In this document: positions 4,989 to 60,278 of the stretch, in pieces | How the letters are laid out: every line of letters starts with the position of its first letter | Position numbering within the stretch: the first letter of the stretch is position 1 | Source of the DNA: Acidovorax sp. SUPP3334 | GTDB lineage: Bacteria; Pseudomonadota; Gammaproteobacteria; Burkholderiales; Burkholderiaceae_C | DNA length: 64,000 nucleotides | Assembly: GCF_030159055.1 (NCBI RefSeq) | Contig: NZ_BQXQ01000029.1 | Coordinates: 1-64,000 of the forward strand | Reading direction: 5' to 3' | Made by a program: the position numbers and the translations under genes | Notes under the pieces: model-generated | The model's database searches: none | Told to the model about the DNA's origin: nothing | The model's input: the letters and a program-made list of their open reading frames with translations, nothing else

Positions 4989-6445
4989 ACGCCGATTCCG
5001 CCGCAGGCGACCGGTCCCGCCGGGCCGCCGCGCGGGCCGCGGCCACGCCAGCGTCGCCGGACGGCCTGCCGCCGCGCGAGCGGGCCTGGGCCATGCTGGT
5101 CATCGTCCTCGGGCTCACGGTGGCGGTGCTGGACGGCAGCATCGTCAACCTGGCGCTGCCCGGCATCGCGCGTGAGCTGAACGCCGGTGCGTCCCAGGCC
5201 ATCTGGGTGGTCAACGCCTACCAGATCGCCACGCTCGTCATGCTGCTGCCGCTGGCCTCGCTGGGCGAGCGGTTCGGCTACCGGCGCGTTTACCTGCTCG
5301 GCATGGCGCTGTTCGCCGTGTCGTCCCTGGGCGCCATGCTGGCCACCTCGCTGCCCACGCTGATCGTGGCGCGCGCCGTGCAGGGCCTGGGGGCGGCCGG
5401 CATCATGAGCGTGAACGCCGCGCTGGTGCGGCTGGTCTACCCGCGCGCGCAGCTCGGCCAGGGCATGGCCATCAACTCGTTGGTCGTCGCCACCTCCTCG
5501 ATGGCGGGGCCTTCGGTGGCAGCGGGCATCCTGTCGGTGGCGTCCTGGCCCTGGCTCTTCGCGCTGAATTTGCCGCTGGGCCTGTTCACCCTGTGGCTGG
5601 GGCGGCGCGCGCTGCCGTCCAACCCGCCCACCACGCACAAGGGCGCGCGCCTGACGGTGCTGGACGTCACGCTCAACATCCTCATGTTCGCGCTCATCTT
5701 CATCGGCGGCGAGCAATTGGGCGTGCGCGGAGAAGCGGCCGGAACGGCTTCGCCCCTGGGCTGGGCGTTGCTGCTGGCTGGCGTGGCGGTGGGGTGGGTG
5801 TACCTGCGGCGCCAGATGCGCCTGGCCGTGCCGCTCTTTCCGGTGGACCTGCTTCGCATTCCCGTCTTCGCACTGTCGATGGGCGCCTCGGTGAGTGCAT
5901 TCTGTGCGCAGATGCTGGCCTTCCTGTCGCTGCCTTTTCTGCTGCTGGAGGCCCAGGGGCGCTCGCACCTTGAGGCCGGTCTGCTCATCACCGCCTGGCC
6001 CCTTGCGATCGTGCTGATCGCACCGCTGGCAGGGCGGCTCATCGGCCGTTTCGCAGACGGCTTGCTGGGTGGCATCGGCATGGCGGTGTTCGCGTGCGGG
6101 CTGCTCGCGCTGGCCGCCCTGCCGCCGCAGCCCGGCGTGTTCGACGTGGCGTGGCGCATGCTGCTGTGCGGTGCGGGCTTCGGGCTTTTTCAGTCGCCCA
6201 ACAACCACACCATCGTGACCTCGGCCCCGCTGCACCGCTCAGGCGCGGCCAGCGGCATGCTGGGCACTGCGCGCCTTACCGGGCAGACGCTCGGCGCGGT
6301 GGTGCTGGCGGGCATCTTCGCCGTCTGGGGCCTGCACGACGGGCGGGGCGAGGCCGTCGCGCTGACGGTGGCGGCCGGCTGTGCCGCCGTGGCGGCCGTG
6401 TGCAGCGTGATGCGGTTGCGGCAGGCGCCACGGGCGCATCCCTGA
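4985..6445 (+). CDS. EmrB/QacA-family (DHA2) MFS exporter
   Basis: A 486-residue, 14-segment MFS transporter. It shows LDGSIVNLALPGI in helix 1 and LGERFGYRRV in the loop after helix 2, both diagnostic of DHA2 drug exporters. The start is TTG 4985, overlapping the TGA of the upstream gene (4986-4988), which suggests translational coupling; the next in-frame ATG at about 5093 would remove much of the first helix. The N-terminal 30 residues are Ala/Arg-rich and cytoplasmic. No membrane fusion protein is adjacent, so it may work alone. The drug is unknown. Confidence 0.8.
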   Translation: MNADSAAGDRSRRAAARAAATPASPDGLPPRERAWAMLVIVLGLTVAVLDGSIVNLALPGIARELNAGASQAIWVVNAYQIATLVMLLPLASLGERFGYRRVYLLGMALFAVSSLGAMLATSLPTLIVARAVQGLGAAGIMSVNAALVRLVYPRAQLGQGMAINSLVVATSSMAGPSVAAGILSVASWPWLFALNLPLGLFTLWLGRRALPSNPPTTHKGARLTVLDVTLNILMFALIFIGGEQLGVRGEAAGTASPLGWALLLAGVAVGWVYLRRQMRLAVPLFPVDLLRIPVFALSMGASVSAFCAQMLAFLSLPFLLLEAQGRSHLEAGLLITAWPLAIVLIAPLAGRLIGRFADGLLGGIGMAVFACGLLALAALPPQPGVFDVAWRMLLCGAGFGLFQSPNNHTIVTSAPLHRSGAASGMLGTARLTGQTLGAVVLAGIFAVWGLHDGRGEAVALTVAAGCAAVAAVCSVMRLRQAPRAHP

Positions 6446-6460
6446 AAGCACTATGGGTGT

Positions 6461-6515
6461 TTCAGGCCTCCAGCACAATCAATACCACGGCATGTTGCTA
6501 TTAAAATAATAGCAA
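6461..6515 (+). repeat. dispersed hairpin repeat, copy A
   Basis: TTGCTATTA (6495-6503) and TAATAGCAA (6507-6515) form a perfect 9-bp stem with an AAA loop. The preceding bases (about 6464-6484, GGCCTCCAGCACAATCAATA) match the reverse complement of the repeat at 18859-18921 at 19 of 21 positions, so this is a member of a repeat family and not just a terminator. It lies between two convergent genes. Confidence 0.75.
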
Positions 6516-6533
6516 TCGTTTCCAGGAAGGCTT

Positions 6534-7679
6534 TCAGGGGCCGTGGGGCTCGGGGGTGGCTGGCGGCAACTCCGGTCGGGGTGCCACCTGCTCCGCGAGG
6601 GTGTGCAAGGTCAGCGGCGCGCAGCCTTCGGCATGGTTGCTCACGGTGATGAAGGCGTTCTGTCCTGCCCCGGTGATGCCGGCGATGGTGCGCGCCAGCA
6701 GCTCGTGCACTTCCGGTGCCGGATGCACGATCCGGTCGTAGGGGGAATAAAGCGTTTCTGCGTCTTCGTAGCCGTAAGCGCCGTGCACGGGGTTCAGGTT
6801 CCACCGGCACACCAGCGGGCCGGGCCACAGCCGGCGCAGCACATGCAGTTGTTCCTGCAGCGAAGGCATCTTGGCTTGCAACCCCACGCAATACGTGGCG
6901 CCGGCCTCGCGCAAGACTTCGGCGAAGCGGGGCATGAACTCGGGCGACAGCCACTCGGGGTCGCGCACTTCCACGGCCAGCACGCCGTCCGGTGCCGTGG
7001 GCGCGAGCGGCGGCTGCGCCAGCAGCAGGGTGCGCAGACGATCCAGCACCTGCGGCAAGCGGTCCAGCTGCGCCAGGGGCAACGGGCTCAACTGAAACAC
7101 CAGTGCGCCCACCTTGCGGCCCAGCCCTTCGAGCGCTGGCGCCACGAATTCCTGCGTGGCGAGCGCAGCATCCAGAAACGCCGGGTTGGCCTGCCGCCCG
7201 CGCCCGTCTTCGCCGCGCACCAGCGCATCGGTCACCAGGCTGGGCGCCTTCACCACGAAGCGAAAATCGTCCGGCACCTGCGCCGCATAGCGCTCGTACT
7301 GGCTCACGGTGAGCGGCCGGTAGAAGCTGCGGTCGATGCTGACCGTGCGCATGAGCGGGTGCTGGGCATAGACCGGCAATCCGTTCTTGGAGAGTACCTG
7401 CTCGGAATGCTCGCCCTCCCACAGCAGACCCTTCCAGCCGGGATACGTCCAGGACGACGTGCCCATGCGCAGGCGGGGCGGCAGCCGCGCCGCGAGTTGG
7501 CGCAGTTCTTCGTCCCACTGCGCCGGGTGCACGGTACCGCTGCGGCGCACGGCGGGCGCCTTCGCAGGCTGGGCGGCCCCCTTCGGCCGAGCCGCATCTG
7601 TTGCAGCGGGCTCTGCAGGCGCTGTGGGGGGCTCGGGCGGCGCAGGCAGATCGCCGAAAAGATCGTCTTGGTCTTGCAT
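6534..7679 (-). CDS. DUF72 (YecE-like) protein
   Basis: A 381-residue cytoplasmic protein of the DUF72 family, a TIM-barrel fold of unknown activity. The core begins after a Pro/Ala-rich N-terminal stretch of about 70 residues, with MGTSSWTYPGWKG and later FVVKAP and VEVRDPEW motifs. Family members are usually about 250-300 residues, so the N-terminal extension is an addition. ATG 7679 is chosen; the longer TTG at 7703 would overlap the upstream stop. It probably shares a transcript with the small gene upstream (7700-8104). Confidence 0.8.
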   Translation of the reverse strand: MQDQDDLFGDLPAPPEPPTAPAEPAATDAARPKGAAQPAKAPAVRRSGTVHPAQWDEELRQLAARLPPRLRMGTSSWTYPGWKGLLWEGEHSEQVLSKNGLPVYAQHPLMRTVSIDRSFYRPLTVSQYERYAAQVPDDFRFVVKAPSLVTDALVRGEDGRGRQANPAFLDAALATQEFVAPALEGLGRKVGALVFQLSPLPLAQLDRLPQVLDRLRTLLLAQPPLAPTAPDGVLAVEVRDPEWLSPEFMPRFAEVLREAGATYCVGLQAKMPSLQEQLHVLRRLWPGPLVCRWNLNPVHGAYGYEDAETLYSPYDRIVHPAPEVHELLARTIAGITGAGQNAFITVSNHAEGCAPLTLHTLAEQVAPRPELPPATPEPHGP

Positions 7680-47655: not shown

Positions 47656-48279
47656 ATGTACATCCCCCCGCACTTCGCCGAATCCCGACCCGAGCCGCTG
47701 CACCGCCTGCTGCGCGAATACCCGCTGGGCACCCTGGTCACGCATGGCCCGGCCGGCCTGGATGCCGACCATCTTCCGTTCGAGTTCGATCCCGCGGTGG
47801 GCGAACATGGCCAGCTCTCGGCGCACGTGGCCCGCGCCAACCCGCTGTGGCAGCGCTGCCCCACGGGCACGCCGGTCATGGTGGTGTTCCAGGGCCCGCA
47901 GGCCTACATTTCGCCCAACTGGTATCCCAGCAAGCATGAGTCGCACCGCATGGTGCCCACCTGGAACTACGAGGTCGTGCACGCGCACGGCGTGCTGACG
48001 GTGCATGACGACGAGCGCTTCGTGCGCCGCCTGCTGGCCCGGCTGACCCGCCAGCACGAAGCGGCGGAGCCCCGGCCGTGGAAGATGGGCGACTCGGCGC
48101 CCGACTTCATCAACGGGCTGCTGCAGCACATCGTGGGCATCGAGATCGCCGTCACCTCGCTGGTGGGAAAGTCCAAGCTCAGCCAGAACCGCGAGCCGCG
48201 CGACCTCGCAGGCGCCGCCGACACGCTGCAGGCGCGCGGCCATGGCGACCTGGCCGAACGGATGCGGCCCGCTTCCTGA
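47656..48279 (+). CDS. PaiB-family FMN-binding protein
   Basis: A 207-residue flavin-reductase-fold protein of the PaiB family. It opens MYIPPHFAESRPEPLHRLLR and contains the family core YISPNWYPSKHESHRMVPTWNYEVVHAHG and a C-terminal helix GIEIAVTSLVGKSKLSQNR. In Bacillus PaiB affects sporulation and protease genes; in Proteobacteria these proteins often sit beside a MocR regulator, as here. Whether it reduces a substrate or regulates is unknown. Confidence 0.85.
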   Translation: MYIPPHFAESRPEPLHRLLREYPLGTLVTHGPAGLDADHLPFEFDPAVGEHGQLSAHVARANPLWQRCPTGTPVMVVFQGPQAYISPNWYPSKHESHRMVPTWNYEVVHAHGVLTVHDDERFVRRLLARLTRQHEAAEPRPWKMGDSAPDFINGLLQHIVGIEIAVTSLVGKSKLSQNREPRDLAGAADTLQARGHGDLAERMRPAS

Positions 48280-48589
48280 CGCCGCCATCCCGTCTTGCAT
48301 GATCGAGTCTCCGGTCCAGCGCTGTAAGAATCTGCGGAACAGCATGCACGCCCGGATCGAGCCCGCCTGCCCCGTGCATCAAGTGCGGTGTTGGCACACG
48401 AAAGATCAGAAGGCGCTGCATGGGTGAACTCGCAGGGCTCGCAAAGGCATGGACCCATGCGCTGATTGCGGCATCGGGGAGCGCATCCTTCGCGCGGACA
48501 TCTGCGTGCAACGCTTGTTCTGCCAGATTGACGCCGAACAAGCAATTTTCTCTGTCAGTCCTGCCGCGACTCAAGGATAATGATCCGCC
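48280..48589. other. intergenic region upstream of the metallophore-like cluster
   Basis: About 310 bases without a supported gene. Just before the DUF2946 start lies AAGGATAATGATCC (48573-48586), of which GATAATGAT (48576-48584) equals the first half of a Fur box; the second half does not match. TTGACG occurs near 48530. The promoter of the downstream 11-kb run is probably here. Confidence 0.4.
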
Positions 48590-48949
48590 ATGCATACTCT
48601 ACGCACCTCATCAATGCTTGCACGCCTGATCCTGGCGTGGCTCGTATTGACGCTGGGTATCGCCGTGGCTTCGCCCCTGGTCCAGCCCAAGGCGATGGAA
48701 CTGATCTGCTCCGATGGCGGGAGCGCGAAGCTCGTTTTCGTCGATGACAGTGGCGAAGCCGAACAGGGCGCACACCATGGGCTGGATTGTTCCCTGTGCC
48801 TGCCAGCTGCACTGCCCTTGACGCTGGGCCACTACGAGTTGGTGTTGCCCCAGCCTTCTGTCAATGCACGGTACCCTTTTGTGTCGGCGCACATCACGGC
48901 GCTTCTGGGCGCGCCGCTGCCGCCTCGCGGCCCTCCAATCCTTTCTTGA
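48590..48949 (+). CDS. DUF2946 protein, periplasmic Cys/His site
   Basis: A 119-residue DUF2946 protein. It has one N-terminal hydrophobic segment (LARLILAWLVLTLGIAVASP) acting as signal or anchor, then a periplasmic part with His62, His63, Cys67 and Cys70 (HHGLDCSLC). This HH...CxxC pattern fits copper binding and such genes are common next to copper-linked TonB receptors. The start could also be ATG 48614. First gene of the run that continues to 59544; 262 bases separate it from the receptor. Confidence 0.75.
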   Translation: MHTLRTSSMLARLILAWLVLTLGIAVASPLVQPKAMELICSDGGSAKLVFVDDSGEAEQGAHHGLDCSLCLPAALPLTLGHYELVLPQPSVNARYPFVSAHITALLGAPLPPRGPPILS

Positions 48950-49211
48950 TCTTCGGCAACTAAAGCGGCATTGGCTTTGGCGTGGTTTTCGCCAGCCATT
49001 CGCCTCCTGACAGTGCCCTCAGCGCCATTCAGCGCTGAACCATTCCTCTTTGCTCGCCTTTTCTGGCCAGTCCGTTTCGCGCGTTGCTGCGCAGAAACGC
49101 CCGGCCCATTGCCGGCGGTCGTCCGGATGGGCACGAAGCCCGGCCCGTCATGGTCACCGGCACTGCGAAACGCGAAGGCAACCCGTACACCTGTTCACCT
49201 TCCACCAAGCC

Positions 49212-51146
49212 ATGGAAAAAATACGCTCCTTACTGCGTCCTCACGTGATCTCGCTGTCGGCGTCGCTAGCCTGCTGTGGTGCGGCTTTCGCACATACCGA
49301 CAACGACACCTCAACATTACCGGCCGTGGTGGTCGTTGGCAGCCCTGTCATCGAGGACAACCGCACAGATGCCTTCGGCAGCCTGAGTACCGAAGTCAAG
49401 GCCGCGCAGATCCGCGACCTGAACGCTCTGGACTTGTCCTCTGTCTTGCGGCGTACGCCGGGCGTGTCCGTGTCCCGATTCAACCCGGTGGGATCATTCG
49501 GCGGCGACGAAGGGGGCGCTGTCTTCGTGCGTGGGCTCGGGGCCAGCCGTCCAGGCAGCGAGATCAAGACCTACATAGACGGTATTCCTTTCTATATGGG
49601 CGTCTGGAACCATCCGCTGCTGGACCTGATTCCGGTGAACGGCATCGACCGCATCACGGTCTACAAGGGGCCTCAGCCACAGACCTTCGGCAATACCTTT
49701 GCTGCGATCGACGTAAGTCCCAAGCGCGCCATGCGCGAAGGCGTTTCCGCGGATGCTCGCCTGAGCGCAGGCAGTTTTTCCACCATCGTCGAACAGGCCA
49801 GCTTGCAGGTGCGGCAAGGGGATTTGGGTGTGTCCCTGACCCAGGGCGAGGCGCGATCCAACGGCAGTCGCCCGGACGGTGATGGCAGGCTGTCCAACGT
49901 GATGGGTCGGATCGACTACCGGTTGACACCACAGTGGTCAGCGGGACTGAGCCTGCTTTATGCCGACAACAAGGTGTCCGATCCTGGGCAGGAGGGATTG
50001 CCCGCCACGAAGACTGGAAAATTCGATACGCGTGGTGGCTTTGCGGCCTTCTCGGTAGCCCACGAGCATGAGCATGCCCGCGGAACGCTGCAGATCTACG
50101 ACAACAGCGGCCAGAGCAACTGGCGCGACAACCCGGCCCAAGCCGATACCCTCAGTAAGTTTCGCCTCAGCGGACTGCGATGGATGGAAACCCTCCAGCC
50201 GTGGACGGGTGGCGAGATCGTCGCAGGGGTCGATCTTGACCGCATGAGCGGTAGTCTTGCGTTCGGTGGCTTCACCGCGTTCGATGGCGTTTCGCTGCGC
50301 CTGACATCCCCGCATGTGGCGGTCAGCCAGTCGGTGATGTTGGGCAACGACTGGAAGGCAACCCCTTCGATCGGCGTGCGCCTTTATGACCACAGCGTCT
50401 ATGGGCACTCCAGTGCCCCCCATGCGGGATTGGTGCTCGACCGGGGTGATTCGCTGTCTTTTCGCGCTAACGCCTCTCGCGGGCTGAACCATCCCGGTCT
50501 CGATGCCGCATTGCTCAATGCCATCGTGCCGCCACTGGCCAGTGCGCCGACCAGTTGGCGCGGGCTGCGGCCCGAGCGCATGAACCACATGGAGGTGGGC
50601 GTGCGTTGGTCGCCCCGTCCGGGAAGCAGCGTTGATCTGGCGGTGTTTGAGGACCGCCTGAGCCAGCGCTACGTTTTCGCTTTTCCACCGGCCGTGGCTG
50701 TGCCTGGCCTCACTAACCTGGGCTACTACCGCATCAAGGGCGTTGAACTGGCGGCGCAATATTCGATGGACAAATTCTGGTCGTTGTTCGCTGGGCTGAC
50801 GCTGCTCAATCCGAGCCGCAGCGATCTTCCCTATGCACCGCGCCGCGTACTTTCCCTGGGAACGAAATGGCAGAAAGGCGCATGGCGCGCCAGCGTGGAT
50901 GCGCAGACCCAGAGCGGGATGTTCACGCTCAACCGCGATCGATCCGATGGATCGAGCAGCACTTCCCGCGTCGGCGGCTTCGCCGTCGTCAACCTGCGCG
51001 TGGCCTACGCCCTGCCGAGTTTGCTGGGGCCTCGGGGCGAGGTCTTCATCGCGCTGGAGAACCTCGCTGATCGCAGGTACGCGTACCGCAGCGGTTATCC
51101 CATGCCCGGCCGATCCGCCCAACTGGGTGTGACCCTGAGCTTGTGA
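49212..51146 (+). CDS. TonB-dependent outer-membrane receptor
   Basis: A 644-residue receptor. A signal peptide (about 1-28, ending AAFA-H) is followed by the plug domain (LSSVLRRTPGVSVSRF, VFVRGLG, DGIPFYMG, RITVYKGP) and a 22-strand barrel ending in the Phe-less but typical LGVTLSL. A weak TonB box may be TLPAVVVVG (about 36-44). Although near copper-type genes, its own ligand cannot be read off. ATG 49212 is the start with the signal peptide. It is 50 bases before the next gene of the cluster. Confidence 0.9.
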   Translation: MEKIRSLLRPHVISLSASLACCGAAFAHTDNDTSTLPAVVVVGSPVIEDNRTDAFGSLSTEVKAAQIRDLNALDLSSVLRRTPGVSVSRFNPVGSFGGDEGGAVFVRGLGASRPGSEIKTYIDGIPFYMGVWNHPLLDLIPVNGIDRITVYKGPQPQTFGNTFAAIDVSPKRAMREGVSADARLSAGSFSTIVEQASLQVRQGDLGVSLTQGEARSNGSRPDGDGRLSNVMGRIDYRLTPQWSAGLSLLYADNKVSDPGQEGLPATKTGKFDTRGGFAAFSVAHEHEHARGTLQIYDNSGQSNWRDNPAQADTLSKFRLSGLRWMETLQPWTGGEIVAGVDLDRMSGSLAFGGFTAFDGVSLRLTSPHVAVSQSVMLGNDWKATPSIGVRLYDHSVYGHSSAPHAGLVLDRGDSLSFRANASRGLNHPGLDAALLNAIVPPLASAPTSWRGLRPERMNHMEVGVRWSPRPGSSVDLAVFEDRLSQRYVFAFPPAVAVPGLTNLGYYRIKGVELAAQYSMDKFWSLFAGLTLLNPSRSDLPYAPRRVLSLGTKWQKGAWRASVDAQTQSGMFTLNRDRSDGSSSTSRVGGFAVVNLRVAYALPSLLGPRGEVFIALENLADRRYAYRSGYPMPGRSAQLGVTLSL

Positions 51147-51196
51147 TCGATGTCACCCACTCAGTCCATTCAACTTACTACACAAGGAATTCCATC

Positions 51197-51697
51197 ATGA
51201 CAACCATCCGTCTCTGGCCTGGCAGGATCGCCATGTCCCTCGGTTTTTTTCTGAGTGCCTTGACGTGCAGGGCCGGCGAATCACCGGACGAAGCCGCCAT
51301 TCGCCAGGTCATTCTCTCGACCTGGAACAAGCCGAACGCACCTGTGGAGGTGGGGCCCGTGGTCGTGGCGGGTGTGAACGCCATCGCAGGATGGACGCAA
51401 GGCACGCGCGGCGGGCGCGCCCTGATGACGCGTGACCAGTCCGGCCGGTGGTCGGTCGCGGCCTGTGGCGGCGACGGCCTGAAAGACGCGAAATCGCTTG
51501 AATCCACCGGAATGGGGGCGGCCAGGGCAAAACAGCTCAGTGCTGCTCTGGCCCAGGCCGAAAGCGCCATACCCGCAGCACGAAAGGCGCAGTTTTCCAC
51601 CTTCGACGGTCTTGTTCGCATGGACGCGGGGGGGCAGCATTTCGGGCATGAAACCTCTTCCCATATTGGCTTAGACGTTCCGGGTGCCAAGCCATGA
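51197..51697 (+). CDS. copper-uptake-system-associated periplasmic protein
   Basis: A 166-residue exported protein. The signal peptide spans about 1-26 (IAMSLGFFLSALTCRA). The mature part shows DEAAIRQVILSTWNKP, VVVAGVNAIAGWTQGTRGGRALM, and VAACGGDGLKD, a pattern I recall from proteins annotated as copper uptake system-associated and found beside TonB receptors and DUF2946 proteins. Exact role unknown. Its TGA overlaps the ATG of the E1-like gene (51694-51697), tying uptake genes and biosynthesis genes into one operon. Confidence 0.7.
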   Translation: MTTIRLWPGRIAMSLGFFLSALTCRAGESPDEAAIRQVILSTWNKPNAPVEVGPVVVAGVNAIAGWTQGTRGGRALMTRDQSGRWSVAACGGDGLKDAKSLESTGMGAARAKQLSAALAQAESAIPAARKAQFSTFDGLVRMDAGGQHFGHETSSHIGLDVPGAKP

Positions 51698-52857
51698 TGC
51701 TGCCTCCCTTGGTCGCGCCGCAGGCGGAACTGACACCGGAAGAGATCGGCCGTTACAGCCGCCATCTCCTGCTGCCGGACGTTGGACTGAACGGGCAACG
51801 ACGCTTGAAGTCCGCCCGGGTGCTCGTGATCGGCGCAGGGGGACTGGGCTCGCCGGTGCTGCTGTACCTGGCTGCAGCCGGCGTCGGCCGCATCGGCATC
51901 GTGGAATTCGATTCGGTGGAGGTGTCGAACCTGCAGCGCCAGGTGATCCACGGCATGTCCGACCTCGGGCAGCCGAAGGCGCAAAGCGCCGCGCGAGCGC
52001 TTCGGGCACTCAACCCGTTGGTGGACATAAAGTTGCATGTCCAACGGCTGGAGGCGCACAACGCGCTGGAGATCCTCGATGGTTACGACCTGGTGATCGA
52101 CGGCACCGACAACTTCGCCACGCGCTACCTGGTCAACGATGCCTGCGTATTGGCTGGCAAGCCTTACGTCTGGGGCTCGATCTACCGATTCGAGGGCCAA
52201 GCATCGGTGTTCTGGGAGGACGCCCCCGGCGGTTCCGGCCTGAACTACCGCGACCTGTATCCCGAGCCGCCGCCCCCCGAACTTGCACCTTCGTGCGCCG
52301 AAGGGGGCGTGCTGGGCGTGCTGTGCGCATCCATCGGATCGGTCATGGCCACCGAGGCCATCAAGCTCATCACCGGGCTGGGCGAGTCCCTGCTCGGCCG
52401 CCTGATGGTGTATGACGCGCTGGACATGGCCTGGCGCAGCATGCCGATACGCCGTGATCCGCAGAGAACGCGCATCACGCGTCTCATCGACTATCCGGCG
52501 TTCTGCGGCTTTGGCACTGCGCCATCCGGCGAGGTTCCCGGCATCACGGCTGTTGAACTCAAGGCGCTGCTGGAGGGCAACTCGCCTCCTGTGCTGATCG
52601 ACGTGCGCGAGGCTGCGGAGCGCCACATCGTCAACATTCCCGGATCGGTGCATGTGCCCAAAGGGTCGCTCACGGTGGATGCGTGGCTGGCTGCGTTGCC
52701 CCCGCAGACGCCCATCGTGCTGCACTGCAAGTCCGGCGTGCGATCGCGCCAGGCGCTGCTTGCCTTGAGCGAGCGTGGATATGCCCGCGTGCGCCATCTC
52801 GAAGGCGGCATCCTGGCGTGGGTCGATCAGGTGGACCCGTCGCTGCCCAGGTACTGA
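51694..52857 (+). CDS. MoeB/ThiF-type adenylyltransferase with rhodanese domain
   Basis: A 387-residue two-domain sulfur-activation enzyme (MoeZ/QbsC-like). The N-terminal E1 domain has ATP-binding VLVIGAGGLGSP (43-54), Asp73, NLQRQ (79-83), TDN (138-140) and the conserved Cys201. The C-terminal rhodanese domain has the persulfide Cys345 in HCKSGVRS. It adenylates the C-terminal Gly of a small carrier and exchanges AMP for sulfur. The adjacent JAMM and MoaD/ThiS-like genes supply the carrier. Copies for molybdopterin or thiamine lie elsewhere as a rule; the context here points to a dedicated pathway. Confidence 0.9.
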   Translation: MMLPPLVAPQAELTPEEIGRYSRHLLLPDVGLNGQRRLKSARVLVIGAGGLGSPVLLYLAAAGVGRIGIVEFDSVEVSNLQRQVIHGMSDLGQPKAQSAARALRALNPLVDIKLHVQRLEAHNALEILDGYDLVIDGTDNFATRYLVNDACVLAGKPYVWGSIYRFEGQASVFWEDAPGGSGLNYRDLYPEPPPPELAPSCAEGGVLGVLCASIGSVMATEAIKLITGLGESLLGRLMVYDALDMAWRSMPIRRDPQRTRITRLIDYPAFCGFGTAPSGEVPGITAVELKALLEGNSPPVLIDVREAAERHIVNIPGSVHVPKGSLTVDAWLAALPPQTPIVLHCKSGVRSRQALLALSERGYARVRHLEGGILAWVDQVDPSLPRY

Positions 52858-52864
52858 GCGCCCG

Positions 52865-53281
52865 ATGTTGCTGCTGAGCCATGAACTGGCCGATGCCATG
52901 GTGCGCCATGCGCTGGCCCACCATCCGGTCGAAGCCTGCGGGCTGATCGCCGGCCCGCCCGGTGGGGCGCCCGTGCGACTGGTGCCGTTGCGCAATGCAT
53001 CGAACGCCACTGATGCATTTCGCTTCGATTCGCGCGAGCAACTCTCCGTCTGGCGCGAACTGGACGAGCGCGGCGAGATGCCGCATGTGCTTTATCACTC
53101 GCACACCGCGTCGCGCGCCTACCCGAGCCGCGACGACGTGGCCTTTGCCGCAGACCCGGCCACCCACTACCTCATTGTTTCCACTGTGGACCCACAAAGC
53201 CCGGAGATGCGCAGTTTTCGCATCGTCTCGGGCCGGATCACGGAGGAAGCGCTTGTCATTTCCGACTGTCCAACTCGTTGA
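52865..53281 (+). CDS. JAMM/Mov34 metalloprotease for sulfur-carrier maturation
   Basis: A 138-residue single-domain JAMM protease. The full zinc motif is present: Glu23, His78-Ser-His80 and Asp91 (EXnHXHX10D), with Ser88. In thioquinolobactin synthesis the homologue QbsD trims residues from the end of the carrier QbsE to expose GlyGly. The carrier encoded next also has extra residues after its GlyGly, so this enzyme is expected to cut there. ATG 52865 lies seven bases after the E1 stop. Confidence 0.9.
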   Translation: MLLLSHELADAMVRHALAHHPVEACGLIAGPPGGAPVRLVPLRNASNATDAFRFDSREQLSVWRELDERGEMPHVLYHSHTASRAYPSRDDVAFAADPATHYLIVSTVDPQSPEMRSFRIVSGRITEEALVISDCPTR

Positions 53282-53295
53282 AGGAGCCCATTTTC

Positions 53296-53586
53296 ATGAC
53301 TGTCACTGTCCACATTCCCACTCTGCTGCGTGCCCTCACCCAGGACCACAAGCGCGTTGATTGCTCAGGCCGGAGCGTGATGGAGGTCATCGACTCGATC
53401 AACCACCTTTATCCCGGAATCAAGGATCGCCTGGTTGCCAACGGACGGGTGCATCGCTTCATGAACATCTATGTGAACGATGAGGACATCCGCTTCGCGG
53501 CAGATCTGTCAACGCCTGTCAGTCCCGGCGACTCGGTGACCATCCTTCCGGCCGTCGCGGGCGGCAGCGGGGCACGCCCATGTTGA
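53296..53586 (+). CDS. MoaD/ThiS-like sulfur-carrier protein with masked GlyGly
   Basis: A 96-residue ubiquitin-fold sulfur carrier. The end reads VTILPAVAGG (81-90) then a six-residue tail SGARPC (91-96). Carrier activity needs a free C-terminal GlyGly that is adenylated and turned into a thiocarboxylate, so the tail must be removed, most simply by the JAMM protease encoded just before. AAGGAG precedes ATG 53296. Its last bases overlap the next gene. Confidence 0.9.
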   Translation: MTVTVHIPTLLRALTQDHKRVDCSGRSVMEVIDSINHLYPGIKDRLVANGRVHRFMNIYVNDEDIRFAADLSTPVSPGDSVTILPAVAGGSGARPC

Positions 53587-55475
53587 AAGCTGCGACCACG
53601 CCATGGCTGGCCGGCTGTGGCTTGAGCCGGATGGCCGCGCGCACGCCAGGCGGCTGGAGTCCGTTCATGCGCTCTCTCCGGTTCCAGGCCGATCGGCTGG
53701 GTATCGCGTGCGATGGGGCGCTTGCCGCTTCGCCAGAGCGTGACCATGCCTTGCGATTCGATCTCGTGGCACCCGGTGCGCGGGCCGTGACTGCCACCGT
53801 CCACGCCTGGGCCGACGGCAGCCACGCCATCGACGGCAGCGAATTCCTGGCACAGGCGGGCAGCGGCTTGATGGCGGTGCATGGCCGCTCCAGCGGCGGC
53901 AGCCGCGCACTCGGCCTGGACTGCGTCGGCACCGCGACCTCCGTGCTCGCCTTGCAAGGGGCGATGGCGGCCGCGCTGGGGCAATTGCGCGGCGCCTCCA
54001 GCACGCGGGTGGAGGTGTCGCTGGCCGGTACGGCGCTGCTGTGCATCGGGCAATACCTTGCCGGAGCCACTGCGTCCGATGCGCCGGAGCGGTTGTCGCC
54101 AGGCAGCCATTCGCCGCAGGATCGGCCGCCTTTCCTGTCGGCCGATGGGGTGGTGTTCGAAATCGAAACGCTGTATGCGGAGCCTTGGCGCAATTTCTGG
54201 GGAGCGCTGGGCATCGAGCCCGCCGTGGCTGCTCAGGGTTGGAAGGGCTTCCTGCTGCGCTATGCCAAGGCCGTGTCGCCGATGCCGGCAAGCATGATGC
54301 AGCTACTGGCCGGCTTGCCCTACGCGGAAATCGCGGCGCGTTGCGCGCAGGCCGGCATGGCGGTCTGTCCGGTCAGGCCAGTGGCCGCACGTGCGCAGGA
54401 CCCCGGGGCCCGCGACCTCTGGATGCAAGGGCCGTGGCGATTTTCCACGAACCCTGGCCTACCCGCAGTCCGGCCGCTGCCGTCGCCGCGATCACTGCCG
54501 TTGAGCGGGCTGACGATCATCGAATCGTGCCGCCGCATCCAGGGACCGCTGGCAGGCCATCTGCTCGCGCTGCTGGGCGCACGGGTGGTCCGCATCGAGC
54601 CTCCGGGTGGGGACCCGCTGCGCGGCATGCCGCCGATGGCCGGGGATGTGTCGGCACGCTTTGATGCATTGAACCGCTTGAAGACGGTGCGAGAGATAGA
54701 CATCCGGACCGCTGCGGGCCGCTCGGCCGTGCTGGAGCTTGCCCGCGATGCGGACGTGTTCCTGCACAACTGGGCACCTGGCAAGGCTTTGGAACTGGGG
54801 CTGGACGATGGCGATCTCCATCGGGTGAATCCGGCGCTGGTCTATGCCTATGCCGGCGCCTGGGGCAGCGAAGGCCATGCTCCGAGCTTGCCAGGCACTG
54901 ATTTCATGACCCAGGCCTACTCCGGCGCCGCATCGGTCATCGCGCAGGCCGCCGGTACGCGCGGAGGATCTCTTTTCACCGTGTTGGATGTGCTGGGTGG
55001 GGTTGTCGCCGCGCAGGGCGTCACGGCCGCGTTGCTGCGCCGGCAGTTGAGCCCGTCGGGGTGCCGCGTCGATACCTCGCTGCTGGGTGCCGCGACCCTG
55101 TTGTGCGCCGACGAGTTGCAGGCGTGCTGGGAAGGGGGTGCCAAGGCAACGGACTGCGGTCCCCTGCTTCAGGCCGTGATTCCCGTGAAAGACGGACGGA
55201 TCGCGGTGGAATGCCCCGACGATGCGGCGCTGAGCCGTCTGGCCGAGGCCGCCGGCCTGCCGCGACCAGCGTCCGCTGACGTGGTTCGTGACGCGCTGCC
55301 CGGCTGGCTGGGGGCGTTGACGCTGGGCGACGCCGAACGCTTGCTTTCCCGCATCAGCGTGCCGGCCACCGCGGTGGCCGAAGACCTAGCCCTGTTGCCC
55401 GAAAACCCCCGGCTGGCCCGCGCGCTGCGGCCAGCCTCCTATGTCCAAGTGCAGTCTCCCTGGAGGTGGTCATGA
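53580..55475 (+). CDS. double CaiB/BaiF-type CoA transferase
   Basis: A 631-residue protein made of two class III CoA-transferase-like halves. The C-terminal half (about 300-631) has LTIIESCRRIQGPLAGHLLALLGARVVRIEPPGGD and NPALVYAYAGAWGS...GTDFMTQAYSGAAS with the family's catalytic Asp. The N-terminal half repeats the pattern in decayed form (DGSEFLAQAGSGLMAVHG, then TSVLALQGAMAAALGQL); the Asp is Glu there, so it is probably not catalytic. Such enzymes move CoA between acids. It overlaps the carrier gene by seven bases and the ligase gene by four. A role in activating or releasing the thioacid product is inferred. Confidence 0.75.
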   Translation: MLKAATTPWLAGCGLSRMAARTPGGWSPFMRSLRFQADRLGIACDGALAASPERDHALRFDLVAPGARAVTATVHAWADGSHAIDGSEFLAQAGSGLMAVHGRSSGGSRALGLDCVGTATSVLALQGAMAAALGQLRGASSTRVEVSLAGTALLCIGQYLAGATASDAPERLSPGSHSPQDRPPFLSADGVVFEIETLYAEPWRNFWGALGIEPAVAAQGWKGFLLRYAKAVSPMPASMMQLLAGLPYAEIAARCAQAGMAVCPVRPVAARAQDPGARDLWMQGPWRFSTNPGLPAVRPLPSPRSLPLSGLTIIESCRRIQGPLAGHLLALLGARVVRIEPPGGDPLRGMPPMAGDVSARFDALNRLKTVREIDIRTAAGRSAVLELARDADVFLHNWAPGKALELGLDDGDLHRVNPALVYAYAGAWGSEGHAPSLPGTDFMTQAYSGAASVIAQAAGTRGGSLFTVLDVLGGVVAAQGVTAALLRRQLSPSGCRVDTSLLGAATLLCADELQACWEGGAKATDCGPLLQAVIPVKDGRIAVECPDDAALSRLAEAAGLPRPASADVVRDALPGWLGALTLGDAERLLSRISVPATAVAEDLALLPENPRLARALRPASYVQVQSPWRWS

Positions 55476-57127
55476 GCGAATCCGGAATCGTCGATCTCGT
55501 TCCCGTATCGTTGCGCCGCGAATGGAGCCTTCGTGGCTGGTATCCCGATCGCTCGGTGTACGAGATGTTCGCAGCCCACGCCCTGCGCCAGCCCGACAAG
55601 CCGGCCGTGGTGTCGCCGACTGGCAGCGTCAGTTACGGGATGCTGCTAGACGCCGCGCATCGCCTGGCGGCAAGCCTGCGCAAGCGCGGCATCGTGCCAG
55701 GCGACGTCGTGGCCTATCAACTGGCGAATTCCTGGCGAAGCTGCGCCATCGACCTGGCCGTCGCTGCGCTGGGAGCGATCGTGGCACCGCTGCCGCCGGG
55801 CCGCGGCCGGCTCGACATGGAGTCGCTGCTGCGGCGCTGCCAGGCGCGCGCCGTCATCGTTCCGCCGAGCCATGGCGATGTTGACCTGTGCGAGCTGGTC
55901 GAATCGCTGCGTTCCAGCCTGCTGTCGCTGCGCATTCTCGTGCTGGACGGTGCATGCCGCGAGGGGTGGTCCACGTTCGACGACATGCTGGAGGGACACC
56001 CCATCGATCCCGTGTCGCTGCCTGCCGTGAATCCCAACGCGCCCGTGCGCCTGCTGGTGTCATCGGGCACGGAGTCCGAACCCAAGCTGGTCGCGTATTC
56101 GCACAATGCGCTGCTCGGCGGCCGTGGGCGTTTTCTGCAGCGGCTGCATCCCCAGGGGCAAGGATTTCGGGGCTTGTATCTCGTGCCACTGGGCTCTTCC
56201 TTTGGCTCGACCGCCACCTTTGGCGTGCTGTCCTGGCTTGGGGGCTCGATCGCGTTGATTCCCCGGTTCGACCCCGTCACCGCGATCCAGGCCATCGCCA
56301 GCCTGAAGCCCACCCACGTCCTGGGGGTGCCTACCATGCTGCAGCGCATGGCGGCCGATCCGCTGCTGTCGAGCATCGAAAAGTCCAGCCTGGTGGCAAT
56401 GGTCAGCGGCGGCTCGGTGATCGACAGTGCGAGCATCCGCCGCTGTGTCGAGGCATTCGGCTGCGGTTTCATCAGCCTCTATGGCTCGGCCGATGGCGTG
56501 AACTGCCACAACACTTTGGACGAATCGCTGGAACTGGTGCTGCGCAGCGTCGGCAAGCCCAACGACAGCGTGTGCGCGATCCGTCTCGTCGATGAGGCGG
56601 GCCGGGAGGTCGGTGCCGGCGATATCGGTGAAATCACGGCACTCGGCCCACTCAGCCCCATGCAGTACGTCAACGCGCCGGAACTCGATCAGCGCTACAG
56701 AGATGCCGGCGGCTGGGTCTATACCGGCGACCTGGGATGCTTCGACGTCGACGGATACCTGATGCTCACCGGGCGCAAGAAGGACATCATCATCCGCGGT
56801 GGGTCCAACATCAGCACCGTACAGATCGAAACGCTGGCGACAGGCCACCCCGACGTGGTGAGCGCCGCCTGCGTGCCCGTGCCCGATGCGGACATGGGCC
56901 AGAGGGTGTGCCTGTGCCTGACGATGCGCGATGGCGCGCCGCGGCCAAGCCTGAACGAGATCAATGCCTACCTGCGCGAGCAGGGGCTGGAAAACAACAA
57001 GCTGCCGGAGTATCTGCGCTACTACCGCCAACTGCCGCTGAGTCCGGCAGGCAAGGTGGACAAGAAGGCGCTGACCGCCGAAGTCTCTGAACTGGGCAAC
57101 GGACCCGGTTTCCGGATTGCTCGCTGA
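55472..57127 (+). CDS. AMP-dependent acid ligase (aryl/acyl-AMP type)
   Basis: A 551-residue ANL-superfamily ligase. It has the phosphate loop LLVSSGTESEPKLV (unusual: Glu where Gly is normal), ISLYGSADG, YTGDLGCFDVDGYLMLTGRKKDIIIRGG and the C-terminal catalytic Lys in SPAGKVDKKAL. It is closest to aryl-acid ligases such as EntE/DhbE and to the ligase of thiocarboxylate pathways that adenylates the acid before sulfur attack. TGGAGG precedes ATG 55472. Not a modular NRPS; no carrier domain is present. Confidence 0.85.
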   Translation: MSESGIVDLVPVSLRREWSLRGWYPDRSVYEMFAAHALRQPDKPAVVSPTGSVSYGMLLDAAHRLAASLRKRGIVPGDVVAYQLANSWRSCAIDLAVAALGAIVAPLPPGRGRLDMESLLRRCQARAVIVPPSHGDVDLCELVESLRSSLLSLRILVLDGACREGWSTFDDMLEGHPIDPVSLPAVNPNAPVRLLVSSGTESEPKLVAYSHNALLGGRGRFLQRLHPQGQGFRGLYLVPLGSSFGSTATFGVLSWLGGSIALIPRFDPVTAIQAIASLKPTHVLGVPTMLQRMAADPLLSSIEKSSLVAMVSGGSVIDSASIRRCVEAFGCGFISLYGSADGVNCHNTLDESLELVLRSVGKPNDSVCAIRLVDEAGREVGAGDIGEITALGPLSPMQYVNAPELDQRYRDAGGWVYTGDLGCFDVDGYLMLTGRKKDIIIRGGSNISTVQIETLATGHPDVVSAACVPVPDADMGQRVCLCLTMRDGAPRPSLNEINAYLREQGLENNKLPEYLRYYRQLPLSPAGKVDKKALTAEVSELGNGPGFRIAR

Positions 57128-57142
57128 CACGAAAGGACCCGC

Positions 57143-58309
57143 ATGAGCGAACAAGCACGGTTATCGAACACGCTGGCATGCGAAGTGCGGCAATGGATCG
57201 ATGCCCACGTCATTCCGGCCGAGGCCCTTCTGGATCAAGACGATTCGGCCGCCGCAGGCAAGGCCGCCGAGCTGGTCGAGGCCGCCCGGCGTGCCCGGTT
57301 GTGGGGGTCTTTCTATCCCGCCGCGCTGGGTGGGCGCGTGAGCTCGCTCGCCGCCTACGTCACTGTTGCAGAGGCGGAAGGTCGATCGGAGCATGGCCCG
57401 ATGGTCTTCGGCAGCGAGGCCGCCGTCGATGCGCACATGCTTTTTATGCATGGCAGTCCGCTGGTCCGCGAGCGCTATCTTGCGCCGCTGGCGGCGGGGC
57501 AAGCCACGCCCGCCTACGCCATGTCCGAGCCGCAAGGCATCGGCTCGATGCCATCGACCATCCAGACGTCGGCCACGCTGCACGATGGTCACTGGCACAT
57601 CGACGGGCTCAAGTGGTTCATCTGCCGAGCGGGCCGCGCTGCCTTCGTCACCGTCGTTGCCCGGACGCTGCCGGATGCTCCCGCAGAGCAGGCGCTGTCG
57701 ATGATCGTGGTGCCCACCGATGCACCCGGTTTCAGGGTGGAGCGCGAACTGGACATCCTCGGGCGGCACCAGGGGCAGTGCGAGATCTCCTTCACGAACG
57801 TGCGTGTCCCGGCCGATCACGTACTCGGCGAACCGCACCGGGGCATGGCGCTGATGCGGCAGCGGCTGGTATTGGGGCGGTTGCTGCGCTCCAGCCACTG
57901 GCTGGGGCTGGGCCAGCGTTGCTTCGATCTGCTGTGCGAGCGCATCCGCAGTCCGCGCGGCGCGATGGCGGCACTGCAGGACAAACAGCTCGTGCGGCGG
58001 CATGTTTTCGAGGCACACCTGGCACTGACCAGCGCGCGCGCGCTGGTGCATGCCGCAGCGGAAGAATTCGACGCCGGCCGCCGGTGCGATCTGTCAGCGA
58101 ATCTTGCCAAGGTGGCTGCGGCTCGCGCCCTGGGACTGGCGGCGGATTCCGCCATACAGATATTCGGGGCGGAAGGCTTGAGTGCGCTCACACCGTTGTC
58201 AGGCATCTTTCGCTCAGCGCGGGCCACGCGCATCCTGGATGGCGCCGATGAAGCCCTCATCAGCTCCGTGGGCCGCCAGTTGATCGACCTCGAAGCCGCA
58301 GCTTCATGA
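57143..58309 (+). CDS. acyl-CoA dehydrogenase-like flavoenzyme
   Basis: A 388-residue acyl-CoA dehydrogenase fold. FAD-site motifs include YAMSEPQGIGSM (127-138 region) and WFICRAGRAAF; the C-terminal loop reads RILDGADEALIS, like the ADGPDEVH of the ACAD10/11 branch rather than YEGT of MCAD. It is expected to oxidise a CoA or AMP-linked precursor, perhaps in making an aromatic or unsaturated ring. It lies 15 bases after the ligase and overlaps the exporter gene by ATGA. Confidence 0.85.
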   Translation: MSEQARLSNTLACEVRQWIDAHVIPAEALLDQDDSAAAGKAAELVEAARRARLWGSFYPAALGGRVSSLAAYVTVAEAEGRSEHGPMVFGSEAAVDAHMLFMHGSPLVRERYLAPLAAGQATPAYAMSEPQGIGSMPSTIQTSATLHDGHWHIDGLKWFICRAGRAAFVTVVARTLPDAPAEQALSMIVVPTDAPGFRVERELDILGRHQGQCEISFTNVRVPADHVLGEPHRGMALMRQRLVLGRLLRSSHWLGLGQRCFDLLCERIRSPRGAMAALQDKQLVRRHVFEAHLALTSARALVHAAAEEFDAGRRCDLSANLAKVAAARALGLAADSAIQIFGAEGLSALTPLSGIFRSARATRILDGADEALISSVGRQLIDLEAAAS

Positions 58310-59544
58310 AAGGGCCTGATATGCACCCTGTCGTAGGCACGGCCCCCGAGCCGAAGGCAACCGCCGCCGATCTGCGCTCCTGCGCATCCGGGCTGGCTGC
58401 CGTCCTAATGGCCGCCATGGCATTGCCCATGCTGGTGCTATACGCCGTTGGAACGCTCGGCCCCATGCTGGGCCGCGATCTGGGCGTAGCTCCCGGGTCA
58501 TTGGGATGGGTCACCGCTGCGACTTTCGGCGTGGCCGCGGCGCTGTCCCCCTGGGCGGGAACCTGGACGGCGCGGCTGGGCGGCCGCCTGGGGCTGGTGG
58601 TGCTGTTTCTGGCCGTTTCGCTGGTCTACACCATGATGGCTTGGGCGCCGGGCCTGACGGCGCTGACATGCGCAGTCGCTGTCGGCGGTGTGGCGCAGGC
58701 GTTGTGCAATCCGGTCACGAACCTGCTCATAGCGCAGCAGGTGGCCCCGAATCAGAGGCCGCGCATGGTGGGAGTCAAACAGGCGGGCGTGCAAGTGGCA
58801 GCGCTGTTCGCGGGGCTGGCCTTGCCCGTGCTGGCATCCCGTTGGGGCTGGCGTTGGACGCTCGGTCTCATGGCCCCCCTCGGCCTGCTGCTGGCCCTGG
58901 CCGTTCCCGCCGTGACGCGGCAGCACGCGGCCGGGCCTGTGCCGCCGATGACCCCACCGAGGCCGAACTTGGCTCTGGCCGTGTTGATGGGCATCCAGTG
59001 GTGCGTGGGTGCCGCACTGTCGGCGTTCATCGTGTCCTTGCCTGCGCACGCGGCCGCCCAGGGGTGGCCTCTGGTACAGGCAGGTCATCTGGTGGCGGTC
59101 TTCGCCGCGACCGGGTTGGTCTCGCGCGTGGTGCTGACCCCATTGGCTGCGCAGCTTCGGGACGAGTCCTGGTTGATCTTGTTTCTCTTGGTGATCGCCG
59201 CCGCATCGGCGGGCGGCGTGCTTTTGGCTGGCCCCTTGCGGCAATGGCCGCTGTGGTGCGCGGCGGGGCTGATGGGCATCAGCGCGGTGGCCTTGAACGC
59301 CGTCGCCATGGGCATGGTCGTGCGGCACGCCACGTTCGGTGCCACGGCCGTTGCGTCCGGCTGGTTGTCTGCAGCCTTCTTTGCCGGGCTGGCATTGGGC
59401 GCCCCTTTGGCAGCCGCCGCAGCAAACTTCGGTTATGGCTTGGAATGGACCTGGCTGGGCCTCGCCATGGTGCTGAGCGTAGCGGCCACTATCACCCCCT
59501 TGCTTCGGTGGGCGATGCGCGGCAGCCGTGTCTCCAGGGGATAG
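58306..59544 (+). CDS. MFS exporter at the end of the metallophore-like cluster
   Basis: A 412-residue, 12-segment MFS protein. It begins MHPV (ATG 58321) or MKGPDMHPV (58306); helix 1 reads VLMAAMALPMLVLYAVGTLGPML, and motif A-like residues are TWTARLGGRLG. Its place as the last gene, coupled to the dehydrogenase, suggests it exports the product or imports the loaded metal complex. PDTC and thioquinolobactin loci also carry an MFS protein. Substrate inferred only from context. Confidence 0.8.
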   Translation: MKGPDMHPVVGTAPEPKATAADLRSCASGLAAVLMAAMALPMLVLYAVGTLGPMLGRDLGVAPGSLGWVTAATFGVAAALSPWAGTWTARLGGRLGLVVLFLAVSLVYTMMAWAPGLTALTCAVAVGGVAQALCNPVTNLLIAQQVAPNQRPRMVGVKQAGVQVAALFAGLALPVLASRWGWRWTLGLMAPLGLLLALAVPAVTRQHAAGPVPPMTPPRPNLALAVLMGIQWCVGAALSAFIVSLPAHAAAQGWPLVQAGHLVAVFAATGLVSRVVLTPLAAQLRDESWLILFLLVIAAASAGGVLLAGPLRQWPLWCAAGLMGISAVALNAVAMGMVVRHATFGATAVASGWLSAAFFAGLALGAPLAAAAANFGYGLEWTWLGLAMVLSVAATITPLLRWAMRGSRVSRG

Positions 59545-59642
59545 GCGGCTGCCGCGCATTGCGCAAACCGACCCCATCCGTGGCGGCCGGCTCCACCTGC
59601 AGGCACGTTTGTTCGGTTCGCCGTCAGGCCATCGGCAGCCCG

Positions 59643-60278
59643 TCAGCGCAGCACGCGGCACTGGCCGAATTCGCAGCGGATGGCCATCGCATCGCCGTTG
59701 CTGCAAGGCACGGTGTAGGTCTCGAAGCCGGGGCCCTTGGCGGCCAGCCAGGCCATGGGTGTGGCGGTGCAGGACTGGTCGCGCGCCAGGCGCTCGGCGT
59801 TGAAGGTGTCCGTGCCGATGGCGCGCGCCGGCAGGGGCGTGTAATCCGCATGCGCCATGGGCGCTGGGCGGTTGGGCTCGGGCAGCGCCGGCATGGCTGC
59901 ATAGGCGCCCCCCGCGTAGCCCCGGCCGGCCATGCAGTTGGCCACGATGCGCTGGCGGCGGTCCAGCGCCTGCACCCCCTGCGTGGCGCCGAGGGCCCCA
60001 CCGATCAGCGCCGAATCCTGTACCGCGTTGCGGCTGCCGCCCAGCGCCCACACCACCGTGGCCGCCAGCACGGCACCGGCCACCAGCCCATCCACCGTCT
60101 CGCTGGCCACGCCGATCTGGCTGGCGTAGCGCTGGCAGTCGGCCAGGTCCGCAGCCTGCCGGGCCGGGTCTGCAGGCTGCGCGCTGCCGGCAGGCGCGCC
60201 CAGCGAAAGGCTGTCGGAGCCGTGCGTGGCGCAGCCGGCCAGGAAGAGGGCCATGACGCAGATCGACAGCTTTCGCAT
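59643..60278 (-). CDS. hypothetical lipoprotein with glycine-zipper-like segment
   Basis: A 211-residue lipoprotein. The lipobox is LAGC with Cys16, and AAGGAG lies upstream of ATG 60278. After the lipid site is a disordered stretch, then a membrane-like Gly/Ala segment (VDGLVAGAVLAATVVWALGG...SALIGGALGATQGV), a glycine-zipper pattern, and a C-terminal domain with paired Cys (SCTATP, PCSNGDAMAIRCEFGQCRVLR). Probably anchored in the outer membrane. Function unknown. Confidence 0.65.
   Translation of the reverse strand: MRKLSICVMALFLAGCATHGSDSLSLGAPAGSAQPADPARQAADLADCQRYASQIGVASETVDGLVAGAVLAATVVWALGGSRNAVQDSALIGGALGATQGVQALDRRQRIVANCMAGRGYAGGAYAAMPALPEPNRPAPMAHADYTPLPARAIGTDTFNAERLARDQSCTATPMAWLAAKGPGFETYTVPCSNGDAMAIRCEFGQCRVLR

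Follow-up and report, generated by a model that had tools for sequence, protein, structure and literature searches.

The PtmA3/PtmU4 cassette of thioplatensimycin biosynthesis has been shown experimentally to make a thioacid, with PtmU4 performing the sulfur transfer, and that study describes the use of a JAMM protease, a MoaZ-type E1 enzyme and capped sulfur carriers by this system, as well as two-domain CoA-transferases of the PtmU4 type in the thioquinolobactin (qbs; QbsK), pyridine-2,6-dithiocarboxylate (pdt; OrfI) and ytk (YtkF) clusters (PMC6006322). CruR, a DUF2946 protein of Bordetella pertussis, was shown to be a leader peptide that stalls at an RAPP motif without copper, so that the operon is transcribed, and that binds copper at a CxxC motif, leading to Rho-dependent termination; its motifs lie 45 residues apart with RAPP a few residues from the end, and the spacing in the family is kept within one or two residues (PMC9426467). 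Copper receptors of the CrtA family have 707-911 residues and are followed by PepSY_TM in >75% of loci, and the 2026 CrtA study could name no high-affinity chalkophore ligand, proposing foreign ligands or scavenging (PMC12914433). Here we describe ten plus-strand genes (g1 to g10) of Acidovorax sp. SUPP3334, at positions 48,590 to 59,544 of the 64,000-nucleotide stretch analyzed (the window; contig NZ_BQXQ01000029.1), in which a putative DUF2946 leader and a TonB-dependent receptor precede a thioacid cassette. We read them, with a probability of roughly two in three, as a copper-starvation operon that would make, export and re-import a small thiocarboxylic-acid chalkophore, of which scaffold, metal and product are conjectural.

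The genes and families given for this region in a preliminary description were recovered in the list of open reading frames (ORFs) and borne out by Pfam and NCBIfam scans, in the following order:

48590..48949, plus strand: g1, DUF2946, probable CruR-type copper leader (PF11162, 27.6 bits, cutoff 23.7; motif spacing)
48950..49211, plus strand: leader-to-receptor space of 262 nt (C 95 vs G 68), candidate Rho-termination region by analogy with CruR
49212..51146, plus strand: g2, TonB-dependent receptor, 644 amino acids (aa) from ATG 49212 (PF00593, PF07715; clade and context)
51197..51697, plus strand: g3, "copper uptake system-associated protein" (NF033672, 122.9 bits, cutoff 50)
51694..52857, plus strand: g4, E1 adenylyltransferase-rhodanese (PF00899 and PF00581)
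52865..53281, plus strand: g5, JAMM metalloprotease with the motif E...HSH-x7-SxxD, predicted to uncap the carrier (PF14464)
53296..53586, plus strand: g6, ThiS/MoaD-like sulfur carrier ending AVAGG-SGARPC, a capped di-glycine (PF02597)
53580..55475, plus strand: g7, two-domain CoA-transferase III, Asp441 in GTDF (PF02515, two stretches)
55472..57127, plus strand: g8, AMP-forming acyl-CoA ligase of the PtmA3/QbsL type (PF00501 and PF13193)
57143..58309, plus strand: g9, acyl-CoA dehydrogenase (PF00441/02770/02771; nearest solved relative ACAD11)
58306..59544, plus strand: g10, MFS transporter, putatively for free-thioacid export or inner-membrane uptake (PF07690)
48280..59641, no strand: block missing in the siblings G003 and G016 (flank alignment)
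48552..48581, plus strand: weak promoter-like site just before g1, the sole one in 48250-59800 (1 found vs 1.5 expected by chance)

With the likelier start codons, the genes from g2 to g10 follow each other at 50 (g2-g3), -4 (g3-g4), 7 (g4-g5), 14 (g5-g6), -7 (g6-g7), -4 (g7-g8), 15 (g8-g9) and -4 nt (g9-g10). The run had been described as nearly gapless, which is true from g2 onward (-7 to 50 nt) and fails at the 262-nt space after g1, a space that fits the leader role of the DUF2946 gene. Larger overlaps in the ORF list, for example g4/g5, result from alternative upstream starts; the g3 ORF opens at GTG 51143, with a likelier start at ATG 51197 and an N-terminus that by eye resembles a signal peptide. 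The ATGA junction noted earlier between the copper-associated g3 and the E1 gene g4 can be read directly in the sequence. The arrangement is not a product of chance, because the E1, JAMM, carrier and CoA-transferase motifs are kept in 21-25 homologues and g4-g10 stand in the same order in 18 of the 36 loci fetched with g7 as query from other genomes, the latter being the mapping of gene order that had been proposed.

Among the three sibling genomes compared, the flanks ending at window positions 48279 and 59642 are separated by about 0.39 kb in G003; for G016 the flank ends are 48276 and 59633 and the distance is about 0.38 kb. The remaining genome, G009, aligned with the upstream flank alone. 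The empty site of the siblings thus measures about 0.4 kb against 11.4 kb in the window, the missing block extending from before the DUF2946 gene to just past the MFS gene. This clean empty site in two siblings indicates that the ten genes are one unit, in agreement with the earlier view of uptake and synthesis as a single entity. The g7 gene was found in 3/17 genomes of the genus (the window's included), 3/399 of the family and 1/369 of the class (the window's own), and a search of 891 plasmid records with g7 gave only two places covering at least 80% of it, at 40-41% identity.

The assignment of g4-g8 to thiocarboxylate (thioacid) synthesis, put forward earlier together with an own receptor, is supported by homology and comparative genomics, the activities being predicted. 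An E1-rhodanese, a JAMM protease and a capped carrier all lie within the locus, as in loci of the qbs/pdt type. The conserved E1 cysteine of g4, whose role we assume, and its rhodanese cysteine are kept in 21/21 homologues, as is the JAMM motif of g5 (19 from the alignment, with the Ralstonia and MF4836 proteins, whose JAMM identities are unusable, checked separately). All 21 carriers contain AVAGG or SVAGG, and eight of them have residues beyond the di-glycine, which in the window is followed by SGARPC. The aspartate in the TD(F/Y) motif of the CoA-transferase is kept in 25/25 g7 homologues, and Asp441 of g7 would be the counterpart of PtmU4 Asp430, as judged from the motif. The ligase gene g8 directly follows g7, placing an acyl-CoA ligase within two genes of the CoA-transferase. 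A housekeeping role for g6, that is, an E1/carrier pair serving only thiamine or molybdopterin, had been named as the alternative to this assignment; it was rejected because further carriers are encoded elsewhere in the genome, on contig C3 next to what look by eye like ThiG/ThiO-like ORFs and on C33 next to a MoeA-like ORF (also by eye), as are three further ThiF-family genes.

Comparison with the described thioacid systems places the locus beside them. The window shares E1-rhodanese, JAMM protease, capped carrier, two-domain CoA-transferase and acyl-CoA ligase with the PtmA3/PtmU4 system, from which it differs in having the carrier genes in the operon, an acyl-CoA dehydrogenase and copper uptake genes, and in lacking diterpenoid or aryl scaffold genes among the ten. 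With qbs it shares E1, JAMM protease, capped carrier, CoA-transferase, ligase and receptor; in contrast to qbs, its ten genes include no ring genes or methyltransferase, and a putative copper leader is present. A qbs-like locus of Pseudomonas sp. MF4836 (L036), which we take to be qbs by its architecture, has a 907-aa ligase ORF and a carrier ending in GGCF, presumably the QbsE end; g7 and g8 are 40-41% identical to their counterparts there, and the receptor beside the L036 g7 is of another type. The pdt locus was compared by description and is alike in its E1/JAMM/carrier set, OrfI CoA-transferase and OrfJ ligase (PMC6006322). It also has its own receptor and MFS transporter, and neither a copper leader nor g3 is known to us from it. 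Pfam and NCBIfam identified none of the ring-forming genes of the qbs/pdt products among the ten genes, to which this search was confined, and the locus itself is therefore neither qbs nor pdt. The double CaiB protein g7, earlier regarded as a distinguishing mark, in fact ties the locus to the known ones, because QbsK, OrfI, YtkF and PtmU4 share its two-domain type (PMC6006322).

The solved structures nearest to g8 are salicylate- and dihydroxybenzoate (DHB)-AMP ligases. Salicylate or DHB was not adopted as substrate, because the aligned segment holding the asparagine that we presume to read the 2-hydroxyl differs from those ligases. A route from proline to pyrrole-2-thiocarboxylate was likewise not adopted: g9 gives 109.9 bits with the prolyl-carrier dehydrogenase model (cutoff 650), no better than with an acryloyl-CoA reductase model (113.8), and no proline ligase is among the best 25 of 103 NCBIfam models for g8. 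Across the named cassette loci compared, g8 (62-80% identity) and g4 (60-79%) are the best-kept genes, and toward L036 g8 drops to 41% while g4 stays at 62%, a pattern suggesting that the cassette family shares a single acid. Each of the 18 full loci retains the dehydrogenase g9; it is not found in G159 and G180, where the nearest match is another dehydrogenase (28%).

The link to copper, stronger than the preliminary description had it, begins with g1: the copper-responsive leader CruR belongs to DUF2946 (PMC9426467), a point which that description missed. The g1 peptide contains CSLC (residues 67-70), then 42 residues, RGPP (113-116) and 3 residues to the end, and is the first gene before the 262-nt space. 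Leaders of this kind were found at six cassette loci, the window, L015, L017, L018, L019 and L032, and these are the same six, and all of those, that carry g3. The calls were made by Pfam cutoff, except for L015 (sister genome G006), whose leader shares 90% identity with g1 and carries the motifs. The leader heads the operon in L017, from a Rubrivivax metagenome-assembled genome (MAG), in L018, from Paracidovorax anthurii, and in L019, from Ralstonia sp. ASV6, and in L032 (Pseudomonas wayambapalatensis) it heads a receptor operon. The CxxC-to-motif spacing of these leaders is 42 or 45, exactly 45 in L017-L019, and the motif is always 3 residues from the end. Besides the order seen in the window, such leaders precede related cassettes in three different arrangements, and they stand directly before the E1 gene in L018 and L019. 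L032 has two divergent leaders, at about 5773-6243 (minus strand) and 6422-6763 (plus strand), both ending with RASP instead of RAPP, one before receptor and g3 and the other before an AraC-like gene and the cassette. The window genome holds a second DUF2946 leader on C45 (G000; L059:3437-8072), heading a TonB receptor and PepSY_TM in the CrtA-type arrangement. Like the CruR-BfrG/CrtA-bp2921 operon of B. pertussis, the window has a DUF2946 gene (a marginal match in the window) that encodes CxxC and R(A/G)PP and is followed by a long space and a TonB receptor; the two differ in that the window's g2 is shorter than CrtA, g3 replaces PepSY_TM and biosynthetic genes then follow.

The receptor g2 and its partner g3 also occur in copper-related contexts with and without the cassette. 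At 13 g2-type loci, the window's included, a leader lies directly upstream in 8 and g3 downstream in 8; the five without an adjacent leader comprise two cut off upstream, two ammonia oxidisers without DUF2946 and one (L068) with the leader further off. NF033672 is rare (5/150 family genomes), and at four other NF033672 loci no cassette genes occur in the fetched stretch and a CruR-like leader and a receptor are nearby in all four, the receptor of L066 being a tblastn match and its listed long ORF having no Pfam match. In L068:7823-15110 the order is leader, MbnP, MbnH, an ORF of 423 aa, a g2-like receptor (60% identity) and g3, with no thioacid genes in the fetched stretch, and its organism is a possible ligand pirate. 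Judged by these contexts, the g2-g3 receptor module is predicted to be a copper module in its own right. None of the nine genes g2-g10 is lacking in P. anthurii, but their order differs, receptor and g3 standing last there, indicating that the association of receptor and g3 with the cassette survived rearrangement; the Ralstonia locus has leader, cassette and g3, with a g2 relative (43%) on another contig. In trees, g2 groups with its relatives in a single supported clade of eight members (96/94), to which the receptor of the genome's second leader-receptor-PepSY_TM operon does not belong. The identification of g2 as a CrtA receptor was rejected on its length, on g3 in place of PepSY_TM and on the lack of a blastp match to the genome's own receptor of CrtA arrangement, a test made with that receptor and the family description. 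The structure of g3 predicted by AlphaFold from an alignment of five sequences (mean pLDDT 78.7) matched no PDB entry at E 0.001 or better. Methanobactin clusters are alike in capturing copper through a secreted sulfur ligand and a TonB receptor, as proposed here, and MbnP/MbnH adjoin the g2/g3 pair in L068; they differ in that no MbnB/C-type gene is among the ten, the proposed route leading to a small thioacid as opposed to a modified peptide. The leader-g2-g3 module found in Pseudomonas sp. MF4836 (L085) raises the question of whether receptors of the g2 type might take up more than one thioacid-copper complex.

The 36 fetched loci, 22 proteobacterial and 14 actinobacterial, divide into 18 with g4-g10 in order, 3 cut or split (L020, L035, L027), 1 qbs-like and the 14 actinobacterial ones. 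In L027:11809-21409, a Nitrosomonas MAG, the ligase gene is in two pieces about 8 kb apart, which looks like an insertion. The copper type comprises L017, L018, L019 and L032. An ammonia-oxidiser/methanotroph type (L022, L023, L025, L026, L028 and L029, including a Methylococcales MAG) carries the seven-gene cassette with an alginate-export-like barrel, a family termed n14 and mostly an amidohydrolase; two of these six, in Nitrosovibrio and Nitrosospira, have a g2-like receptor just upstream of the cassette. PigD/PigE-like genes, of a kind first met in prodigiosin pyrrole synthesis, lie directly before the cassette in L021, L024, L034, L044, L047, L057 (G180) and L058 (G159); in L034 PigE exceeds its NCBIfam cutoff and PigD stays below, and those of the other loci were found by tblastn. 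An Alcaligenes type has a methyltransferase, AraC and a second MFS transporter. Members of n14 (~350-390 aa; L034:15641-16741, L019:15008-16093 and L028:18481-19626 among others) are encoded downstream of the MFS gene in L019 and in each of the 14 full non-copper cassettes, with no match beside the cassettes of L015, L017, L018 and L032; those of L034 and L019 were scanned and have no Pfam or NCBIfam match. Streptomyces-type loci (L037-L043, L046, L048, L049 and L051) have relatives of g7, g9, g10 and n14, and of g8 in all but L051, and E1, JAMM and carrier had no match in the 14 actinobacterial loci. In a tree of g7 and g8 five copper-type loci group together without full support (92/71), with P. 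wayambapalatensis apart.

Several findings weigh against a chalkophore operon. The g1 match is marginal for PF11162, its spacing is 42 and not 45, and its motif is RGPP and not RAPP; the Pfam search of G006 did not list the leader of the L015 operon, so that the g1/L015 pair as a whole is marginal for the family model. Nor does the C>G bubble in the 262-nt space stand out, since it is matched in strength by 22 of 195 control stretches. No DUF2946 match was found in the six ammonia-oxidiser/methanotroph genomes searched. Neither leader nor g3 occurs in the fetched stretch of 14 of the 18 full cassettes, several of which have other receptors or PigD/PigE genes, and the cassette is therefore not inherently tied to copper. 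The joint occurrence of g2 and the cassette, itself a point in favor, has its limits. Searched at 17 of the 22 proteobacterial g7 loci (L018, L031, L033, L035 and L044 were left out), g2 is present in 5/16 cassette genomes compared with 5/396 family genomes without a g7 match (Fisher p 1e-5, ignoring relatedness), where the 16 include two genomes with a cut or split cassette and exclude L036, which has g2, and the two fractions rest on different taxa; in the family sample alone the values are 1/2 vs 5/396 (p 0.03). Five family genomes (G116, G228, G257, G364 and G432) have g2 without a g7 match, and the genome of L036 has its leader-g2-g3 module away from the qbs-like locus, and the presence of g2 by itself is thus no sign of this synthesis; g2-positive genomes without g7 could use the ligand of others. 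The ten genes include no inner-membrane importer besides g10. The match of g2 to the TonB-copper model is only 20.1 bits (cutoff 472.45), its best NCBIfam model being a general siderophore receptor at 104.6 bits, far below the cutoff of 223.5.

This last comparison, and the link to iron of the receptor-bearing thioacid metallophores known to us, speak for an iron siderophore of the thioquinolobactin/pyridine-2,6-dithiocarboxylate kind, with the copper leader and g3 incidental or in a side role sensing copper interference. We consider such a siderophore unlikely, given that each of the six cassette loci holding g3 has a DUF2946-type leader, that a g2 relative shares an operon with MbnP/MbnH, and that the receptor beside the qbs-like genes of L036 is only weakly similar to g2. 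The preliminary description had left the metal as copper or iron; the leader and the g2/g3 contexts support copper over iron, as a prediction. A still less probable explanation is that the thioacid is an antibiotic or a copper-dependent weapon and the receptor serves self-recovery. Thioplatensimycin-type cassettes do make antibiotics (PMC6006322), the actinobacterial loci have relatives of g7 and g8, many also of g9 and g10, with no receptor match, and the operon includes an MFS transporter; copper repression in the style of CruR, however, fits starvation and not attack or detoxification, and receptor and g3 travel with the cassette even in rearranged order. That the product stays in the cell as a cofactor or sulfur donor (for tRNA, protein conjugation or copper-enzyme assembly), with the receptor genes joined by chance, is very improbable, for although E1/JAMM/carrier sets also serve Urm1- and SAMP-like roles and the NCBIfam desampylase and SAMP1 models match g5 and g6 below cutoff, an acyl-CoA ligase and a two-domain CoA-transferase have no known place in such roles, the unit that is absent as a whole from two siblings contains an MFS transporter and a TonB receptor, and the genome has the other carriers described above.

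For the copper-starvation operon, the following sequence of events is proposed. When copper is scarce, the ribosome would stall on the R(A/G)PP motif of the leader and transcription would run into the operon; copper bound at the leader CxxC would relieve stalling and let Rho stop transcription, both steps being modeled on CruR. The ligase g8 would activate a carboxylic acid to its CoA thioester and g9 would dehydrogenate it, the order and the substrate being conjectural. Protease g5 would trim the carrier g6 to its GG end, uncapping being reported for QbsD, and g4 would adenylate and thiolate that end, after which g7 may exchange CoA for sulfur and give the free thioacid, chemistry that was shown for PtmA3/PtmU4/PtmS. 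The thioacid would exit through g10 or another route and bind copper, and the complex would re-enter through g2, with g3 probably assisting in the periplasm. The neighbors of the block are ordinary: upstream lie an FMN-binding gene and, divergently oriented, a GntR/aminotransferase regulator, and the downstream side has a gene with a DHHA1 domain.

To our knowledge, few bacterial copper ligands are known, and no thioacid chalkophore was found among the matches listed in the literature searched, a search that did not cover pdt papers. Here a receptor operon with a copper-type leader also carries a complete thioacid route, which makes ligand, receptor and regulation testable together. It is possible, although we would put the chances clearly below even, that the locus stands for a bacterial copper ligand of a new chemical class, a small thiocarboxylate chalkophore formed with the help of a sulfur carrier, sensed at the ribosome through a copper leader, used by copper-hungry ammonia oxidisers, a methanotroph and soil- and plant-associated proteobacteria, and pirated by species with leader, receptor and g3 only. 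If confirmed, the operon would add a new route of bacterial copper acquisition. The ammonia or methane monooxygenase of Nitrosomonas, Nitrosospira, Nitrosovibrio and the Methylococcales MAG needs copper, and the seven-gene cassette in these organisms would bear on its supply by a non-methanobactin route.

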